The notes under the pieces: generated by a model
What the model was told of the DNA's origin: nothing
The model's database searches: none
The model's input: only the letters and a program-made list of their open reading frames with translations
DNA from: Fasciolopsis buskii
Taxonomy: Eukaryota > Platyhelminthes > Trematoda > Plagiorchiida > Fasciolidae
Length of the DNA stretch: 64,000 nt
NCBI GenBank assembly: GCA_008360955.1
Contig: LUCM01002898.1
Span: forward strand, 11,876 to 75,875
Reading direction: 5' to 3'
Program-made: the position numbers and the translations under genes
In this document: one piece after another, positions 14,651 through 29,510 of the stretch
Position numbering within the stretch: position 1 is the first letter of the stretch
Layout of the letters: every line of letters begins with the position of its first letter

Positions 14651-17600
14651 TTAAATAAGATTTGCCTTTATAAAACGCCACAGAACCTCGACGCGATAAC
14701 ATGTTGTGAACTGTTGAGCTTCCAGATCCGTTGTCGTTGTAGTCGTCGTCATCGACTGTGTCGTTTGATCTGATTTCCAATGCTCACGAGCTCGCTGAAT
14801 TGCTGGCCAGGCAGCCTCAACCGGGATAAGCAAAGCTTCCGGATCCATCGAAAGAATCGATACTTCAGGATCGCCGGGGTCCACTTGTAGCCTTGAATTT
14901 GGACTCAGCCATAACAGTGTGGCCGGAGCAGTTAAGGATGTACAGGTACAGTCGACAGAAGTCGGCACTACCAGGGTTGCATTCCAGGATGAAATAGACC
15001 GAGTAAAATCAATTTCATTCAGAGTGACATTGTACAAATTCGCTTGGACCTGTGTGTGAACCTTCACACCAAACAAATTTGACCAACCATGACACACGTG
15101 ACTGCTTAGTTTATTCATTAGCGTTTGATTCATCTCCGGAGACAGTATACAAATAGGGCATCGCAGTGCGAATGACTCGGTACTCGACAATGCCGTGGGT
15201 CCAGTAGTGCTAGGAGTGGAATAAGCGTCTTTGTCCAATTTCCAAGCGCCAGGGCATTCGTCCAGTGTGTAGCTTGTCGAAACGCGTCGATTGTTCGAGT
15301 AATAATCTATCGCTGCAATCACCGCTGGCTTAGCGTTTTTCACATAAACAGACTGGATCAAAGTGAGTTTCACACACCGTTTCTGTTCTTCAATCCGTCC
15401 GCTTGCCTCCTCATGTTCGCGAGAAAATCCATCGAAGTAAGCGGAGACTGTACTGTCGTCTGGTGAAAACTCGATCTGCTTAGGACCATCAGAATTACCA
15501 CTGATTTGTTTGACTATTACCTGAGGAATCGGTTTCCATCCGGTTACCATATTGACAGTAATCAAAAGCATCCCAGTTTCTTCTGGACTTTCTTTATTTG
15601 GCATCAAGCAGATCGACAAAGTGGCAGCAGTACAGGCATTTGCAGGTGGTTCCTGTGGCTGTTCTATCAATTTCGTCATGTGAAACACATCGTCTCGTGA
15701 TTTCTCTCCTTCCTGTTCGTGATAGATCAATGAACAGTGCACGGTTACACATCCATCTAAGGGTTCGAGTGAACTCAGTGTCCAGCTGATTTGACGAATG
15801 TCTTTAGGAACCAAATCTCCTGGTACACTGAACTGATTTAGAACATGGCGTTTTTCACTGGTCATGCTCTGGGCAAATTTGAAGCCAACCGGTTGGATAA
15901 TCGCTTCAATTTCCAGCGTACTATTTGACGGTGGAGTGCCACTTATTCCAATCCGCTTAGCAAACTGGGCAATTGCTTCCAAAGCCATCACGGTATCTTG
16001 AGTTGAGAAAAACCCGCCTTCACGCTTTTGCTGAGAAGATAGCCAACGCACAACCGGAAAAAGAAGTTGATTCTCCGACTGAGTTGTTTTAGCGAATGTC
16101 AGCAAAGCATAACTTGTCGTCTCCACATCCAAAGCATTGATATCAACATCTGGTTTATTGTCGAGTGTTTCTAAGGCCCTCCAGTATTGCAAATTTTGTG
16201 ACAAACCACCGGGACTATGTTCTTGTTTGCGTCTTTCTAGTTCTTGTTTCATAACTACTGTTTGATTCTCATTGGGACCAAGTAGAACCGTGGCATAAGC
16301 TAGCTGAGCCAAAGCATAAGTGTTCAGTTGCCGTATTTCTTCAGTATTGCCTAATCCGTGTTTGTTACGCAAGCATCGCACTGCATTATCAATCACTTGG
16401 CTGAATTCCGGTGAGTAGTCCGTCCCGTTATCTGGTCTGGTTTCTAAGATAGCAGACAAAATGTACGTTGTCAAGAGCATTTCTTTCTCCTTTTTACTTC
16501 CCACCCCTGCACCGCCTTGCATGCCCGTGTGTAATACACGACCTTGTTCGACGAAGCAACCCGAATCTTTGTTTTGACGTGTTTTAAGAAATTGCGCTGT
16601 CTCGGCAAACAACGTACTCCATTCGACCTGAATAGAGCGATCTACTTTATAGGCTTTGGCAAACACACGTAAGACAAATGCTGTCAACCAAGTACTTCCC
16701 ACTGAATCTGATTTACCGAAAGCCGAGTAAGAGCCATCATCATGGCGATAGCCTAGCTGTCGCTGATATCCGGTCAGAATGTGCTTTTTTGCATCACGCT
16801 TCAAATTGTCCAGGCCGCGGCTATTCCCGGTCGCTTCGACAGAGTTCAAATAATCCAATACGTAAACGTTGGGTGCAACAAGGACCATATTTTGTTCACC
16901 ACATCCGACCGGTAGGCGAACCAATTGATCTAAATTAGCCAAAGCAGGACCTAGAACTTCATCCGTGTAGGCCAAATACACTCGCAGCGAATCTGACACG
17001 TAAGTGGAGTGGTCAGGCCACAAAATCGGATAATCTGCCTTAACGGACAGTTTTTTTTTCGTCAGACACAAGATATCCCCTTGACTGAGATCTCGACGCA
17101 CACCTTCCGGTTCCACTTTGATCGCGCGGCGCAGTAGATCGGAAAATGTGCGTGATTTGCCTGCGCGATCATCCGTCTCAGCTCGAATTTCATCTGTGCA
17201 TAGTTCCGTTTTTTCTCGACCGTATGCCTCCACTGTCACATTCAGCATGCCTAATCGCTTTGCTAACAGGCCCAAACGAAATGTTTTCTTGTTACCTGGA
17301 CAGAGACAGTCAGTAAACGACTGAGCACCAATCACAGCCCAATCGTCTTTGTTTAACTGTGCTATCACTGAGACAGTCATACAGTCAGTCAGTCCAGATT
17401 CATTTGTGGGAGCTGCAAATACACTCATAGGCAAATACAATATTTCTCCCCGTTTTAGATGGTTCGGTAGCGTAATCTCGGCAAAAACTGGCATGGAAGT
17501 AATCATCTCAACTGGTTTTGGTATCCATAATCCATTCGACTTGGTAGTACAAAAAGCATTTGCTCTCCAACTAGTAATCGTATCAGGCACTGTTAGAGCC

Positions 17601-20600
17601 TGTCGGATGTACCCACCAGTAGTAACGGTGGTATTTTGTTTCTCCGGTTGTTCCGTTGCATCGGACCACTGAATTCGATAGTAACTGAATAGCCATACTT
17701 CAGGGAAAAAATCTCTCAGTCTTGGTTTAGGAAATGGTTTCGGAATCATTGTGTCAGAAGTTTTGGCAAGCGGAGCCATTCTTGCCTCGGCCTTACCGAA
17801 TACACCCTGATCCGAGTCCATCACCATGTTAACTCTCCGCTGCTCGACAGAGTATGCAATAGGACATGGAATAGGTTCGATTAGATCAATATGGATGTTT
17901 GATATAAGACGTAATCCAGCGGCACGGAATGAGTTCACCAAAGAGGACGGTTCTGAACTATCGTAGTATTTGGGTTCCGTTGTCAGCAGCTGGCTAAGTG
18001 CGTTCAAATCAACCAAGTTCTTATTACCTTCAAAATTATCTAATGACTTATCTTGCATTCTAACAAAACAATATTGGTTATCATTTGTTTCATCATCGTC
18101 AGTTGGTTTTTCAATGCCTTGTGGAACTAACGTCAAATCGATTTTTTGTCCCGGACTCACTCGATTATTGTCCAAACGTAAACCATTTTCGGTTTGTGTT
18201 GACTCCATTGCTGTGGCTGGACTGACACACGTTGACATATTTTGCAGTTTAATAGTTACCGGTATTATTCCGGATGACGAGTTGTCTTTAATCAAGAAAA
18301 ATACGACTACCGTAGCTTCCGGACCCCAGTTACCATCCACTGGGAAAGACACATTTCGCAAATGCAGCGTTCTTTTTGGTGCATACCAAGCCGTAGAAAT
18401 TTGTTCTTCAGTCGTGACGGTTGTTGAAGCAACTTCCGTACTAGACTGACTCGTTCCTTGTTTTCCACTCGGGTGCATTTCGTCAAACGAGTTTCCAAGC
18501 TCCTCAACCTGTACGTCTGCACGGCCACATTCTCTACGTTCAGTGCAAACATCACACCCAGCCCCTGACCAATACCGGAAGCAGGTACACTGCTCGGGGC
18601 CGGAACATACTCCACCAGGACGGTGACAAGTTTGTTTCTCACACACAGGTACCAAACAGTCATCCCCTGTCCAACCGGGTAGGCATTCTATTTCATTTGA
18701 ATCCTGAGGACGCAGGCACTGGTAATGACCTAACTCGTCATCTCGGTCCCTACAAAGATCCGGGTTAGTAGTTGCGGAAATGACATGATGGAAATGTTTC
18801 CCTCTAATAATACCTTGAACATGAATTACTTTGTCTTGAAGTGGGGTATTGGCTAATAACTGGAACTGCGCAATACCGGGGCAAGTGACCTGGATTGCAT
18901 CGGGGGAAGGCCATACTATCATTGACTTATCTTGAGGAGCAAGCCACTTTTCCACAGTCTGCTGAGCTGTCACGCCTTCTTGTGGCTTTGGTGGTCTCCA
19001 TCTTGGAGGGACAATGAAACTCAGAGCAGGGACCGCATTTGTTTCCGGTGAATCGCTGACTCCGGGCTGATATGAGACAGTGAGCAGAACGGAGCGTTTT
19101 GCATTGATTGGCGGGATCTGAAAATCAGCCCTACCACTGCTATCAACGGTGAGCATTTTCGTGAAACGGTATTTCTTATCTTGGTGTACACGGTGTCTTG
19201 GGTAAAACCCGAAGAAGCAGCGCGGGACTGTCTCTTCAACCAGTAAACGTACTGCTACATTTTCAAAACTCACAAGATCGGGATGGACTAAGCGGACAGA
19301 ACCAACCACTGGTAGACCCGGTTTAAATACGCCCGGAGATTTCAGCTCAAAACGTGCTCGGTTGTGCTGGATAACGCGGGTACCGGGGTCACAACGGCTA
19401 ACATTCGACCCAGTCCCTTGCTCTTCTACGTGGGCACATATTACCGAAATCTGATCCCAAGTGGGGTAAGCCATATTTGACAAATCCAACAGTTTGGTGG
19501 ATACATTGAATGACGCACATCCATCGCTAGAAGAAAGAAGGCCGCTCACTGGGAGACAAGGACGTCGTTCTGGGTGCCAAGTGTTTGTGGTGCATGCTTG
19601 TTCCTCAAGCGTAATTTGTTGATCTGACGGATTCTGAATATTCACCCTGGAACAGACGCACAAATGAGCCCGAACTGTGCCAATCATTGGTGGTCCATTT
19701 GTGTACTGTGCACACACACTGAACTGAGTCTGCGTGGATTCGAAAGTCAAGTCCTCTGGTTGGATCATCGAAACGGTGAAACGTGGGAGCACGTACTGTT
19801 TTACATTGAACTCTAATTCCGTAATGACTGGTGGCAATGCACGAAGACGCGCCTTAGCCTTCCATTTCCCATTGGGGGCATCTGACAGTAGAGTATAGTT
19901 CAATGAAAATGCATCTTTTGGTGAAATATTCAACCACTGTTTCACCCGAGTATCACTCGGATCATGTATGACGATTTCTTCAAAGACCGGATTTGTTCTA
20001 GCAGAGATCAGTTCTTTATCTTCTTCAGTGACCGGTTCGAGATGCAACCTGTTACTCCCCGGAAGTTCTACCAGTTTTTCCGACGGGTACTTCAGCGGAC
20101 CGGAATTTGGCCATAACAACTCTGCTATTAGTGCGATGAAACGGAATCTAACTGTCTCTCCAGGGCGGTATAGAGGTTTGTCTGTTTCGCCGAGCAGATT
20201 AAAGGGAGGCTGCAGAACTTGGTATGATTCAGCTAATGAATGTGACTTTGACGTGTCACAGGTATGGGTGCTGCAAATCTGCACGGTAAAATTTATTGTG
20301 ATACTGCCTGCCATTGACTCCTCTAGAACTAAAAATGGAACACGGTAGGGAATTTCCACTGCGTACCAACCGCATGTTAATTGCTCAACTTGGTAAACTT
20401 TTGGGTCCTCGAAAACCTTGTCCAATCGATATTTCGTGGTGCTGAGAGTTACTCGGGTATTCGCATGTGTAGTTCGCACGATAACTTTGTTTTCCAGGCC
20501 CAAATAGACATTATTGGGCAAAGAAATGTAGATGTCATTCAGTTCAATATCTGTAGCACATATTCCATGAGATAGCATTAAGAATAGGCCAGCAAACAAA

Positions 20601-20647
20601 ATCATCCATGTTATCTCCTGCTGAACAGTTTTCGGTGCGATTACCAT
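14651..20647 (-). CDS. Secreted alpha-2-macroglobulin-type thioester protein with internal DSL/EGF module, intronless
   Basis: One uninterrupted frame of 1998 codons. Start: first ATG after an in-frame TGA 12 bases upstream, with A at -3 and G at +4. Residues 1-31 form a signal peptide (hydrophobic 14-26, likely cut after Ala31). Family landmarks in order: LYRPGETVRF (159-168, MG2); EFNVKQYVLPRF (279-290); bait-like segment about 928-980; FPEVWLF then VPDTITSWRANAFC; thioester GCGEQNM (1248-1254, Cys1249 and Gln1252); thioester domain to about 1560 (GYQRQLGYRHDDGSYSAFG, STWLTAFVL, GGFFSTQDTV); receptor-binding-like domain about 1660-1800 ending KPAVIAAIDYY. Family members trap proteases or tag surfaces through the thioester. 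At 1998 residues it is about 500 longer than human A2M. The excess is mainly a DSL/EGF insert in MG5 and a C-terminal extension. About 17 N-glycosylation sequons fit secretion. A2M-type identity is near certain; exact function is inferred. A spliced final exon cannot be excluded. Confidence 0.95.
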   Translation of the reverse strand: MVIAPKTVQQEITWMILFAGLFLMLSHGICATDIELNDIYISLPNNVYLGLENKVIVRTTHANTRVTLSTTKYRLDKVFEDPKVYQVEQLTCGWYAVEIPYRVPFLVLEESMAGSITINFTVQICSTHTCDTSKSHSLAESYQVLQPPFNLLGETDKPLYRPGETVRFRFIALIAELLWPNSGPLKYPSEKLVELPGSNRLHLEPVTEEDKELISARTNPVFEEIVIHDPSDTRVKQWLNISPKDAFSLNYTLLSDAPNGKWKAKARLRALPPVITELEFNVKQYVLPRFTVSMIQPEDLTFESTQTQFSVCAQYTNGPPMIGTVRAHLCVCSRVNIQNPSDQQITLEEQACTTNTWHPERRPCLPVSGLLSSSDGCASFNVSTKLLDLSNMAYPTWDQISVICAHVEEQGTGSNVSRCDPGTRVIQHNRARFELKSPGVFKPGLPVVGSVRLVHPDLVSFENVAVRLLVEETVPRCFFGFYPRHRVHQDKKYRFTKMLTVDSSGRADFQIPPINAKRSVLLTVSYQPGVSDSPETNAVPALSFIVPPRWRPPKPQEGVTAQQTVEKWLAPQDKSMIVWPSPDAIQVTCPGIAQFQLLANTPLQDKVIHVQGIIRGKHFHHVISATTNPDLCRDRDDELGHYQCLRPQDSNEIECLPGWTGDDCLVPVCEKQTCHRPGGVCSGPEQCTCFRYWSGAGCDVCTERRECGRADVQVEELGNSFDEMHPSGKQGTSQSSTEVASTTVTTEEQISTAWYAPKRTLHLRNVSFPVDGNWGPEATVVVFFLIKDNSSSGIIPVTIKLQNMSTCVSPATAMESTQTENGLRLDNNRVSPGQKIDLTLVPQGIEKPTDDDETNDNQYCFVRMQDKSLDNFEGNKNLVDLNALSQLLTTEPKYYDSSEPSSLVNSFRAAGLRLISNIHIDLIEPIPCPIAYSVEQRRVNMVMDSDQGVFGKAEARMAPLAKTSDTMIPKPFPKPRLRDFFPEVWLFSYYRIQWSDATEQPEKQNTTVTTGGYIRQALTVPDTITSWRANAFCTTKSNGLWIPKPVEMITSMPVFAEITLPNHLKRGEILYLPMSVFAAPTNESGLTDCMTVSVIAQLNKDDWAVIGAQSFTDCLCPGNKKTFRLGLLAKRLGMLNVTVEAYGREKTELCTDEIRAETDDRAGKSRTFSDLLRRAIKVEPEGVRRDLSQGDILCLTKKKLSVKADYPILWPDHSTYVSDSLRVYLAYTDEVLGPALANLDQLVRLPVGCGEQNMVLVAPNVYVLDYLNSVEATGNSRGLDNLKRDAKKHILTGYQRQLGYRHDDGSYSAFGKSDSVGSTWLTAFVLRVFAKAYKVDRSIQVEWSTLFAETAQFLKTRQNKDSGCFVEQGRVLHTGMQGGAGVGSKKEKEMLLTTYILSAILETRPDNGTDYSPEFSQVIDNAVRCLRNKHGLGNTEEIRQLNTYALAQLAYATVLLGPNENQTVVMKQELERRKQEHSPGGLSQNLQYWRALETLDNKPDVDINALDVETTSYALLTFAKTTQSENQLLFPVVRWLSSQQKREGGFFSTQDTVMALEAIAQFAKRIGISGTPPSNSTLEIEAIIQPVGFKFAQSMTSEKRHVLNQFSVPGDLVPKDIRQISWTLSSLEPLDGCVTVHCSLIYHEQEGEKSRDDVFHMTKLIEQPQEPPANACTAATLSICLMPNKESPEETGMLLITVNMVTGWKPIPQVIVKQISGNSDGPKQIEFSPDDSTVSAYFDGFSREHEEASGRIEEQKRCVKLTLIQSVYVKNAKPAVIAAIDYYSNNRRVSTSYTLDECPGAWKLDKDAYSTPSTTGPTALSSTESFALRCPICILSPEMNQTLMNKLSSHVCHGWSNLFGVKVHTQVQANLYNVTLNEIDFTRSISSWNATLVVPTSVDCTCTSLTAPATLLWLSPNSRLQVDPGDPEVSILSMDPEALLIPVEAAWPAIQRAREHWKSDQTTQSMTTTTTTTDLEAQQFTTCYRVEVLWRFIKANLI
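14777..15160 (-). other. C-terminal extension, possible NTR/C345C-like domain
   Basis: Residues about 1830-1957 lie beyond the receptor-binding domain, where A2M usually ends, after a Ser/Thr linker (1811-1826). The segment has Cys1830, 1833, 1852, 1900 and 1902. Its pattern of beta-like stretches is: VKVHTQVQANLYNVTL, WNATLVVP, a CTC pair followed by LLWLSPNS, and a late segment ending REHW. This resembles NTR domains, including C345C of complement C3-C5. Similarity is weak and the call is tentative. A Thr run (1967-1973) and a final CYRVEVLWRFIKANLI tail follow. Confidence 0.4.
16529..16531 (-). other. Histidine at the C3-type catalytic position of the thioester domain
   Basis: His1373 lies in VLHTGMQGG, which aligns with the VIHQEMIGG segment of complement C3, whose His is catalytic. 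Human A2M has Asn at this position (LNNAIKGG). The alignment is by eye and anchored by the shared GG. In C3 and C4B a His here favours ester bonds to hydroxyl groups. Confidence 0.6.
16892..16906 (-). other. Thioester motif GCGEQ
   Basis: Codons 1248-1252. Cys1249 and Gln1252 are the pair that forms the internal beta-cysteinyl-gamma-glutamyl thioester in this family. The surroundings (RLPVGCGEQNMVLVAPNVYV) match the family closely, so the thioester is expected to be functional. Confidence 0.93.
17708..17866 (-). other. Putative bait region
   Basis: Residues about 928-980, between the MG6 strand ending EPIPCPIAY and the conserved FFPEVWLF. This is where the protease bait lies in A2M. It contains exposed basic and mixed sites (Arg937-Arg938, Lys952, Arg956, Lys962, several Lys/Arg-Pro) and little else, as expected for a stretch cleaved by trypsin-like enzymes. 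Boundaries are approximate; cleavage is inferred from position. Confidence 0.6.
18377..18784 (-). other. Insert in MG5 carrying half a DSL domain, one EGF repeat and a Ser/Thr linker
   Basis: Residues about 622-757, between the two halves of macroglobulin domain 5. Cys632 to Cys644 reads CRDRDDELGHYQC, and Cys655 to Cys664 reads CLPGWTGDDC. The Cys spacings of 12 and 9 equal the second and third disulfide loops of the Notch-ligand DSL domain. An EGF-type repeat follows with cysteines 669, 674, 681, 687, 689 and 698; its last four spacings match EGF1 of Notch ligands. The first DSL disulfide pair is absent. Residues 727-752 are Ser/Thr/Glu-rich and look like a flexible linker. The DSL/EGF core is 18545-18754. 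The motif match is seen directly; descent from a Notch ligand is inferred. Confidence 0.82.
20555..20647 (-). other. Signal peptide of the A2M-type protein
   Basis: Residues 1-31: a short polar and basic start, a hydrophobic run WMILFAGLFLML, then SHGICA followed by TDIE. The small residues before Thr32 suggest cleavage after Ala31. Met15 is an alternative start that would leave a shorter signal, but Met1 is the first ATG after an in-frame stop and has the better context. Confidence 0.8.
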
Positions 20648-22899: not shown

Positions 22900-24255
22900 T
22901 GTCCAAGTCAAAGTTGCTGCGGAGAGATTCAAGGGCAGAGCTAATGACAAACCTATTAACATAGAAGAAAATCAAAATATTCTCTTGTCCACTGACGATA
23001 CCATCTCGCCCGATGATAAAAAATTTGTGATCTAAAAGCAAATATCACGCCGGACTCCTTGCCATGTACACCTCTAGGACGACAGATATCTTTGACTTCA
23101 GTTGATTTGTTGGATTCTCGCGGATCCATCACCCCGGATGCCATATGCAATGAGAAACGTCGATCCCTGAGATATCAAGTGGTGAGAAATCTGAGAAATG
23201 TAGACAAATGGAAATGTCTGAGGGTATCAGAAATAGTCGCAATCCCTACCGACTGACTAGGAATATTATTCCGCAGAAGACGAACGAACGCGTGATTATT
23301 AGGGAATCTGACGGCACACTGAATCACTCTCAAATCACTAGGCTGGTGCAAAACACTTCAGGAAGCTGCTTAGCTGGCCCACAGCCACAGTGTATCTTCC
23401 ACTTAGGTTTTTCAGGTGAACAGGCAACGGTAGATACCAGCCGAAACGGAGATGATCAGGGTGATAGGTCTTCTTAAAAGGCTTTATTTCGCGGAACCAG
23501 ATGGTCCGCCGGTATTCTTCATCAAAGATGGCAACAAGGCGTAAAATCGAAATCAATAAAACTCATGAGATTAATGCAAGGAAGAGAAGAAGTTTCTGAG
23601 AACTACTGTGAATCGATGATTTTACCGATTTGCAAGAAGGGCGATAGATCCTCATGTGAAAATAACAGCAATTCGCTTGGTACTCGTTGCATCCAACCTG
23701 CTGTCCGTTATAAACTTTTCCCAATTATCTGGCACTCACGAAGGGTGTATTTGTGAGAACTAAGCTAGTTTCCATCTCGGTCGGAATAGTATTGATCAAA
23801 TATATACTTCACAACAAATCTTAGAATTCATTGAGGTCCCGAAACGCGACTGTTATTCTCGTAGTATTGGTACAATATGGTAGGTGAATTTTGTGAGTAA
23901 TTCAGAGGTTAGACATAAGGTACTGGGTCCCAGAGTTCAGTCTTTTGAACAGACAATGAACCAGAATAGGTAAAAGAGTTTGGGACGTTTTGCACATGCC
24001 CACAGAACGTCTGCTCCGTTGTAAGCTGTTCTTCGAGGCAGGTAATGGTTTAAGGATGGTTTAAGGTGACTGATGGATGACATGAAAAAGTTTTAAAACT
24101 GTAACCAGTGGACTGGCTCTTATAGGTGTAGTTAGACTACCGGGTTGGGGTCTACGAGATTCCCCGAAACAGCGGTTGGAGACAGCCGGCGATATGACTC
24201 TGTGTCAAAACCAGTAGTGATTCTGCATCCGAAATCTTTTCTTTTCCTAACTGTT
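22900..24255 (+). mobile_element. RTE-like non-LTR retrotransposon, decayed, plus strand
   Basis: Pieces of one element in the expected order, with frameshifts and stops. Linker after the endonuclease: SVDLLDSRGSITPD, RRSLRYQVVRNLR (about 23082-23200) and IIRESDGTLNHSQ (about 23292). RT start: ESMILPICKKGDRSSCENN (23610-23670). FHLGRNSIDQIYTSQQILEF (about 23770-23832) corresponds to the GF.PGR..IDQI.TLRQ box. C-terminal part: LPGWGLRDSPKQRLETAGDM (24137-24196), a characteristic end of RTE-type proteins. The RT centre is deleted. The element runs toward the A2M-like island that follows. Confidence 0.75.
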
Positions 24256-28435: not shown

Positions 28436-28869
28436 CTCTGCTGAGGAAGTACTATGCACTATCTTCTCTTGGCCGTTGTGTCCCTGCTTTAGTGTAAGGA
28501 CGAGGGTAAATGCCCGGTTCCCTCCAACTGGTTGACTGATCATTGATAGTCAGTCTAAGGGAACTGGTTAAACCCTGATTCCAAACTAACCACAGCCAGC
28601 GTACAAAGCACACGGCTGTGCTCACAGGCAACCGTGGCGAAGGAATGTACTAGGTACACGAGATGTCTAGCCCCATCCAAAGGGCGTATGAACTGAACAG
28701 TCAGTCACCCGTCCCCAATGGGTTACGTGGCCCTCACATCGTCCTACTGCCTTATGCACAAAATCATTTGATCTTAGGCTCCGGGTAGGTTCCTCTAAGT
28801 CAACTCTCTACTTCGGTTTGGGCAACCGCGTAGTAGCATGAATCGCGATGCATGGCCGGTGATGTAGAG
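28436..28869. repeat. Unassigned segment between two RTE-like fragments, possible element 5' region
   Basis: No coding match in any frame I tried. It lies between two minus-strand RTE-like RT pieces. Its position just before the RT fragment at 28080-28435 would fit a 5' untranslated or promoter part of a second copy. This is inference; copy number in the genome would settle it. Confidence 0.3.
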
Positions 28870-29510
28870 ATAGATGGAGGTTAAAACTAGCATGTGTTGT
28901 GAATAGTACACATTGCTTTCATCCTTCCCAGTGATTTCGGTGGCACAATAATTGTATTCGGATTTTTGCAAAATGTATAGAACCATAGGCATGCGGTGTG
29001 TATTGCGCGCTTCGAATAATTGCCGAAGAGTGAGTATTTGGTCAATGCCACCTCGACCTGGATGAAATCCAATCCGCTGTTTGCGGATATTACTCTCGCG
29101 AATTGGTGTCAAACGCCACAGCATCATGGAAACCAAGATCCTGTTAACTATCGAAATTGAACTAATCCCACGATGATTGCTGCAGTCACTCCGTGTGCCC
29201 TTCTTGAAGATGGGTCCAATCAGTGACTCACTCCACGATAAGGAAATACGTTCCTCGTTCTAGATATCACAAAGCAAAGAGGAAAGTGATCACATCGGAG
29301 CATCTCCACCCAATTTGAAAAGAATTGGGGAAGGTGGTCGGGACCGGATGCTGTCTCTCTCTTCAGAATCCCAATATTCGACTTCACTTCCACTACCGTT
29401 GAGGATCAAGTGACACCTCCCAAGGATTTGCAGTTGCAGACAACGCGCTATCCTCATGCCATTGGTTTGACTTCTTGCATTTATTGGAGTAGCATGGAAA
29501 CTTTTTCGCA
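28870..29510 (-). mobile_element. RTE-like LINE RT fragment, minus strand
   Basis: Reading from the high coordinate: ANPWEVSLDP, EVKSNIGILKRETASGPDHL, WSESLIGPIFKKGTRSDCSN, NHRGIS, RILVSMMLWRLTPIRESNIR, KQRIGFHPGRGGIDQILTLR and QLFEARNTHRMP. This is the linker and first third of an RTE-type RT, closely like the plus-strand copy at 22.9-24.3 kb. Frameshifts and an in-frame stop are present. It ends before the first aspartate motif. Confidence 0.8.

Follow-up and report, generated by a model that had tools for sequence, protein, structure and literature searches.

A Delta/Jagged-type DSL-EGF cassette within the MG5 domain of flatworm alpha-2-macroglobulins, and its possible role as a recognition arm

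What does part of a Notch ligand do inside a macroglobulin? The question is raised by a 64,000-nucleotide stretch of the genome of the fluke Fasciolopsis buskii (contig LUCM01002898.1), referred to here as the window, which holds a gene of the alpha-2-macroglobulin (A2M) family. This gene, P0001, extends over 14651..20647 on the minus strand as one open frame of 1998 amino acids with an uninterrupted coding part. An earlier note on this DNA had proposed that a module of the Delta/Jagged type, consisting of half a DSL domain and an EGF repeat, interrupts the macroglobulin domain MG5 at 18545..18754. Read on the minus strand, this interval runs from C632 to C701 with the residue numbers exact and in a single open frame, and the nature, history and likely use of the inserted cassette are the focus of this report.

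As judged by sequence comparison, the cassette is homologous to the second half of the DSL domain, the first EGF repeat (EGF1) and the start of the second (EGF2) of Delta and Jagged proteins. In a search with the DSL profile PF01414, which the earlier note had suggested, residues 630-665 align to profile positions 12-44 of 46 and score 28.8 bits, above the cut-off of 24.2 (E 1.5e-6). When residues 599-726 were compared with PDB sequences by phmmer, Notch ligands came out on top, with human DLL4 (1.9e-13), rat DLL4 (1e-12), Jagged-2 (1.4e-9) and Drosophila Delta (1.4e-8) among them and Jagged-1, DLL1 and Serrate likewise outranking every non-ligand, the first of which, SCARF1, followed at 0.0046. 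Recounting the cysteine steps of 12 (C632-C644) and 9 (C655-C664) and the EGF spacings of 6, 5, 1 and 8 (C674 to C698) gave values identical to those first noted. Furthermore, the predicted structure of the second DSL half superposes on DLL4 and Delta and shows the fold of this half.

The cassette can be divided into three parts, all on the minus strand. The second DSL half with disulfide loops 2 and 3 (residues 632-664, 18656..18754) is delimited by PF01414, the DLL4 match and the model superposition, and EGF1 of the Delta/Jagged type (residues 665-698, 18554..18655) by its cysteine spacing and its alignment to DLL4 and Jagged. The alignment to DLL4 does not stop at residue 701 but crosses the junction between EGF1 and EGF2 (C-x2-C-x5-C) and takes in C701 and C707, with which EGF2 begins its cysteine pattern, and an eroded EGF2 start is thus marked at residues 699-707 (18527..18553) by this match and by the flatworm alignment, in which EGF2 is complete in most other flukes and eroded in this worm and in Fasciola gigantica. 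A complete DSL domain has six cysteines, paired C1-C2, C3-C4 and C5-C6. The window copy falls short of this and has only C3 to C6, with no cysteine between residues 600 and 631 of the protein, so that the reported loss of the first disulfide pair stands; the same columns are free of cysteine in 20 of 23 flatworm rows, the other three, all from Paragonimus, having one each.

The remainder of the protein is that of an A2M. Pfam recognises MG2, MG3, A2M, TED and receptor-binding domains, of which PF07678, PF17791, PF00207, PF07677 and PF01835 pass their cut-offs, while PF17789 lies slightly below its own (23.9 vs 24.7 bits). The predicted strands of the model, and also an alignment with nine non-flatworm A2Ms, support an insertion of the cassette in a strand-to-strand loop of MG5, in agreement with the earlier note; the approximate flanks are residues 559-623 before it (18779..18973, minus strand) and 757-818 after it (18194..18379, minus strand). 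Between the module and the second flank lies a Ser/Thr-rich, variable linker (residues 708-756, 18380..18526, minus strand) with 12% mean identity among flukes.

The copies of this gene within the same genome are of particular importance for the function of the cassette. A search of the 703 Mb assembly with the 76-residue module found five matches, each within an open frame of 1849-2001 amino acids, namely the window gene, the tandem pair P0156 and P0157 on contig C1993, P0158 on C6503 and P0159 on C3528; profile matches across the whole genome numbered six for DSL and three for TED. The four copies outside the window, on contigs C1993, C6503 and C3528 (L010, L011, L012 and L013), are single-frame A2M-like genes of 1838-1924 amino acids. 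The thioester (CGEQ) is retained by the window copy only, in which GCGEQ can be read at residues 1248-1252 (16892..16906, minus strand) within the TED (residues 1229-1561, 15965..16963, minus strand; PF07678, 252.5 bits), and it is absent from the other four copies. A recognisable DSL-EGF1 cassette is found in all five. The TED model is still passed by P0156 (83.4 bits) and P0157 (62.0 bits), and P0158 and P0159 remain under the cut-off for every A2M-family model in Pfam. After masking of the module and linker, BLASTP still aligns each of the four paralogs to the window protein both before and after the module, and a module-free profile of flatworm A2Ms scores them at 475, 395, 216 and 203 bits; none of three Jagged proteins and none of four shuffled sequences was reported by this profile.

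Among these five paralogs the cassette is the best conserved stretch. Identity of the four paralogs to the window copy amounts to 43-59% for the DSL half and 42-48% for EGF1, vs 11-27% for ten other regions, and across all pairs of the five copies, with shared cysteines excluded, the 15 best of 1930 alignment windows start at residues 633-656. The earlier note suggested that bait cleavage might expose or hide the arm; since four paralogs without a thioester keep it, what the arm does may be independent of the thioester. Taken together, the retention of the cassette in all five copies, the loss of the thioester in four and the conservation of the arm suggest that the shared function of the copies probably lies in the cassette arm and not in the covalent trap.

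We therefore asked what kind of arm this may be, and hold with moderate confidence that a captured Notch-ligand cassette has been kept on a secreted macroglobulin as an arm for recognition or tethering. On this view, a single capture in a common ancestor of flukes, tapeworms and planarians would have placed the second DSL half, EGF1 and EGF2 of a Notch ligand in the loop between two MG5 strands of a secreted A2M, and the cassette would since have been retained as an arm which projects from the macroglobulin ring on its variable linker. The partner of the arm would be a protein, which may belong to the worm (one with EGF repeats or one of the matrix) or be of luminal or host origin. In this way the arm may localise the inhibitor, and in the copies without a thioester the macroglobulin may serve as a plain carrier of the arm. 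Several observations weigh against this proposal. EGF2 is eroded in this worm and the gene is still kept, a point in favour of a spacer; P0157, at 27.4 bits, is the only one of the four paralogs above the DSL cut-off; and P0158 (L012), while keeping RDDWLGHH and EGF1, no longer has the two cysteines of DSL loop 2. Moreover, among 17 fluke orthologues, in which the DSL half is 62% conserved with cysteines left out vs 50% for the TED, the DSL half ranks only 118 of 1965 alignment windows, behind the thioester.

The spread of the fusion across flatworms was assessed with residues 1000-1998 as the query of a database search, in which the 7980 best candidates were scored and the best 120 of 4317 matches listed. 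Flatworm proteins make up 24 of the 120 listed rows, the window's own included, and all 24 show both the cassette and GCGEQ. PF01414 is listed for 20 of them, and in the other four (P0009, P0013, P0014 and P0044) the cassette is visible by alignment; its DSL loop is shortened in P0044 of Hymenolepis, and in P0046 of Echinococcus the cassette is broken in EGF1. By eye, PF01414 is listed for none of the 96 non-flatworm rows among the matches listed. The same fusion, which the earlier note had proposed to look for in flatworms, was thus found in flukes, in the tapeworms Spirometra, Hymenolepis and Echinococcus and in the planarian Dugesia japonica, whose module (starting CFPRNDFFGHYEC) matches Jagged-1 proteins at about 44% identity. 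The window protein is 68% identical to a Fasciola gigantica protein, in keeping with a digenean near Fasciola but probably outside that genus, for which Fasciolopsis would fit. In two trees built on chosen rows (19 flatworm of 34, and 19 flatworm of 24), a branch supported at 100/100 separates the sampled flatworm A2Ms from all other rows. The simplest account, we infer, is a single capture before the planarian, tapeworm and fluke lineages split.

Explanations other than an old capture of a functional arm have to be weighed against these data. A chance resemblance, a misassembly or a retained intron could be considered, as the coding of the cassette is read here from genomic sequence, but the frame is single and open, the insertion recurs in 24 of 24 listed flatworm rows and in five of five own copies, and shuffling the module with its cysteines fixed never reached the observed score to Jagged proteins (0 of 1000 for each of four targets), which leaves this reading a negligible probability. 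A recent transfer from a Jagged or Delta gene of the vertebrate host might be read from the scores of the window DSL half, 96 against fish Jagged and 70, 53 and 29 against three other DSL domains of the worm. The lower scores within the worm are, however, explained by the divergence of these other domains, and the cassette occupies the same loop in tapeworms and a free-living planarian, with the sampled flatworm A2Ms in one clade, so that such a transfer is highly improbable. The cassette could also be a structural spacer without any partner, which merely stabilises or lengthens an MG5 loop that tolerates insertions: four of nine aligned non-flatworm A2Ms have inserts of 75-166 residues at this loop, vs 13-26 in the other five, and the annelid Pseudopotamilla has a TIL domain there (P0063, residues 550-608, between MG4 at 362-447 and the bait domain at 694-776). 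This P0063, which its source annotates as Complement C3-like, resembles the fluke protein in having a small disulfide-rich domain in the same loop and differs in the kind of domain, trypsin inhibitor like there and DSL-EGF here. Long inserts at this insertion-prone site also occur in Lineus, Patella and Diadema (P0087, P0075 and P0089). A spacer would nevertheless hardly be the most conserved part of five diverged paralogs, persisting where the thioester is lost, next to a linker that varies freely, and we regard it as unlikely.

A further possibility is that the arm is part of the Notch pathway, acting via the kept DSL face as a soluble ligand, co-ligand or antagonist on EGF11-type repeats of the Notch of the worm or, in a parasite, of its host. 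The DSL face of Jagged1 comprises F199, R201, R203, D205 and F207 (PMC3415683). Three of the five are kept in the window protein, as R633, R635 and D637, and both phenylalanines are replaced, by L631 and L639; the alignment thus upholds the retained Arg of RPRDD (Arg635, equivalent to R203) and the exchange of Phe207 for Leu639 that had been noted before. Over 23 flatworm rows, R203 is Arg in 17 and D205 is Asp in 16, and at position 207 Phe occurs in three (the planarian and two Echinococcus), as it does in the paralog P0157, all of which speaks for this reading. On the other side, R201 is Arg in only four of the 23, no row has Phe at the F199 site, and position 207 is mostly Leu (19 rows, with Tyr in one). 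Leu639 in itself says little in either direction, as that Phe is also missing from the three other DSL loops readable in this genome, CDPRHSVMTHYRC, CQPMRGPHGNFIC and CAPNPPSYTC, a fourth other DSL match (L006) being partial. These other DSL domains of the worm (L001, L002 and L003) are strongly diverged in loop 2, more so than the A2M cassette. Exons of a Jagged-like gene, a full DSL exon (L001) followed by EGF exons identified with tblastn (L014 and L015), lie at C1747:145936 to about 161400, on the same contig as the DSL-A2M gene and 113 kb from it, which may be coincidence.

The wider equipment of a Notch ligand is missing as well. The C2 domain of the ligand makes Notch contact site 1 (PMC5538765), and C2/MNNL (PF07657) is absent from the window protein in a Pfam scan with E up to 1, MG5 strands preceding the module in the model instead. 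The strict DOS motif, taken as printed in PMC11162419, occurs in none of 24 flatworm rows vs 33 of 34 Jagged rows, and the first DSL disulfide is lacking. A partial ligand can work, as in C. elegans DOS proteins that lack a DSL domain are reported to act as ligands of Notch (PMC11162419); the flatworm A2Ms are like OSM-11, DOS-3 and DLK1 in having partial Notch-ligand modules outside a full DSL ligand, and unlike them in having half a DSL domain in place of the DOS pattern. Host Notch is an unlikely original target, as the fusion is also found in a free-living planarian. Overall, a part in the Notch pathway appears improbable, and binding of the cassette to Notch is to be expected no more readily. 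A related and slightly more doubtful idea is a soluble display platform for the Notch-ligand arm, that is, a secreted family, in part protease traps and in part thioester-dead, which would act on EGF-repeat receptors such as worm Notch and, in parasites, possibly that of the host.

The protein with the proposed recognition or tethering arm combines features of two known systems. The cassette is like DLL4 and Jagged in sequence, in cysteine order, in the fold predicted for EGF1 and for DSL loops 2-3 and in its equivalents of Arg203 and Asp205, as well as in EGF2 in most other flukes; unlike them, it sits within another domain of a seemingly secreted protein. The surrounding protein shares its domains, the GCGEQ and a variable bait-like stretch with alpha-2-macroglobulin and A2ML1, and differs from them in the MG5 cassette, the thioester-less paralogs and about 175-190 additional C-terminal residues. 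The bait-like stretch (residues 916-974, limits set by eye; 17726..17902, minus strand) is marked by its low conservation, with a mean of 23% among flukes, and A2M_BRD reaches 18.0 bits there, under its cut-off of 22.7. The C-terminal extension (residues about 1825-1998, 14651-15175) has CPxC and CxC cysteines common to other flatworm A2Ms; neither a Pfam match nor a PDB sequence match was obtained for it, and on visual inspection it bears a resemblance to an NTR/C345C-like domain. Elsewhere in the window, LINE-type reverse-transcriptase-like fragments were seen by eye at 28795-29259 (minus strand) and 23478-23756 (plus strand).

Reports on parasite A2Ms indicate where such a protein may act. 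In the gastrodermis of Fasciola hepatica, one of the three most abundant uncharacterised proteins was modelled as an A2M with a predicted signal peptide (PMC9143473). P0016 is taken for Smp_089670 of Schistosoma mansoni, because its 2127 amino acids, Ser19 and final Asn agree with the range S19-N2127 (PMC9016452). Smp_089670 is tabulated among the proteins of schistosome vomitus, with whole-gene dN/dS values of 0.37 and 0.44 (PMC4350168), and its gene is one of those of the gut that show enrichment in day-3 larvae (PMC3166049); A2M has also been reported in tapeworm vesicle fluid. One parasite A2M has been expressed and screened as an antigen, and a recombinant ectodomain of schistosome A2M is listed as expressed (PMC9016452, PMC6833992). 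Given the orthology assumed here, these findings would fit a secreted protein at absorptive surfaces. The excerpts of these reports make no mention of the cassette domain.

In the open-licence papers searched, no description of a macroglobulin with a DSL domain was found, in line with the earlier note. PF01414 is precomputed on flatworm A2Ms in the protein database, and therefore the co-occurrence is visible to anyone looking. Inserts at this MG5 loop are known in other A2Ms, and the surprising part is the copies that keep the cassette without a thioester.

In flukes, tapeworms and a planarian, the protease trap of A2M is thus fused to the head of a Notch ligand, both of them among the best studied machines outside the cell. 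If the macroglobulin does act as a display platform, one molecule would both sense proteases and carry out, or block, signalling of the Notch type. The four thioester-less copies that bear the cassette separate its function from that of the trap and thereby constitute a natural experiment, and planarians allow the question of what the cassette does to be addressed directly by gene knock-down.
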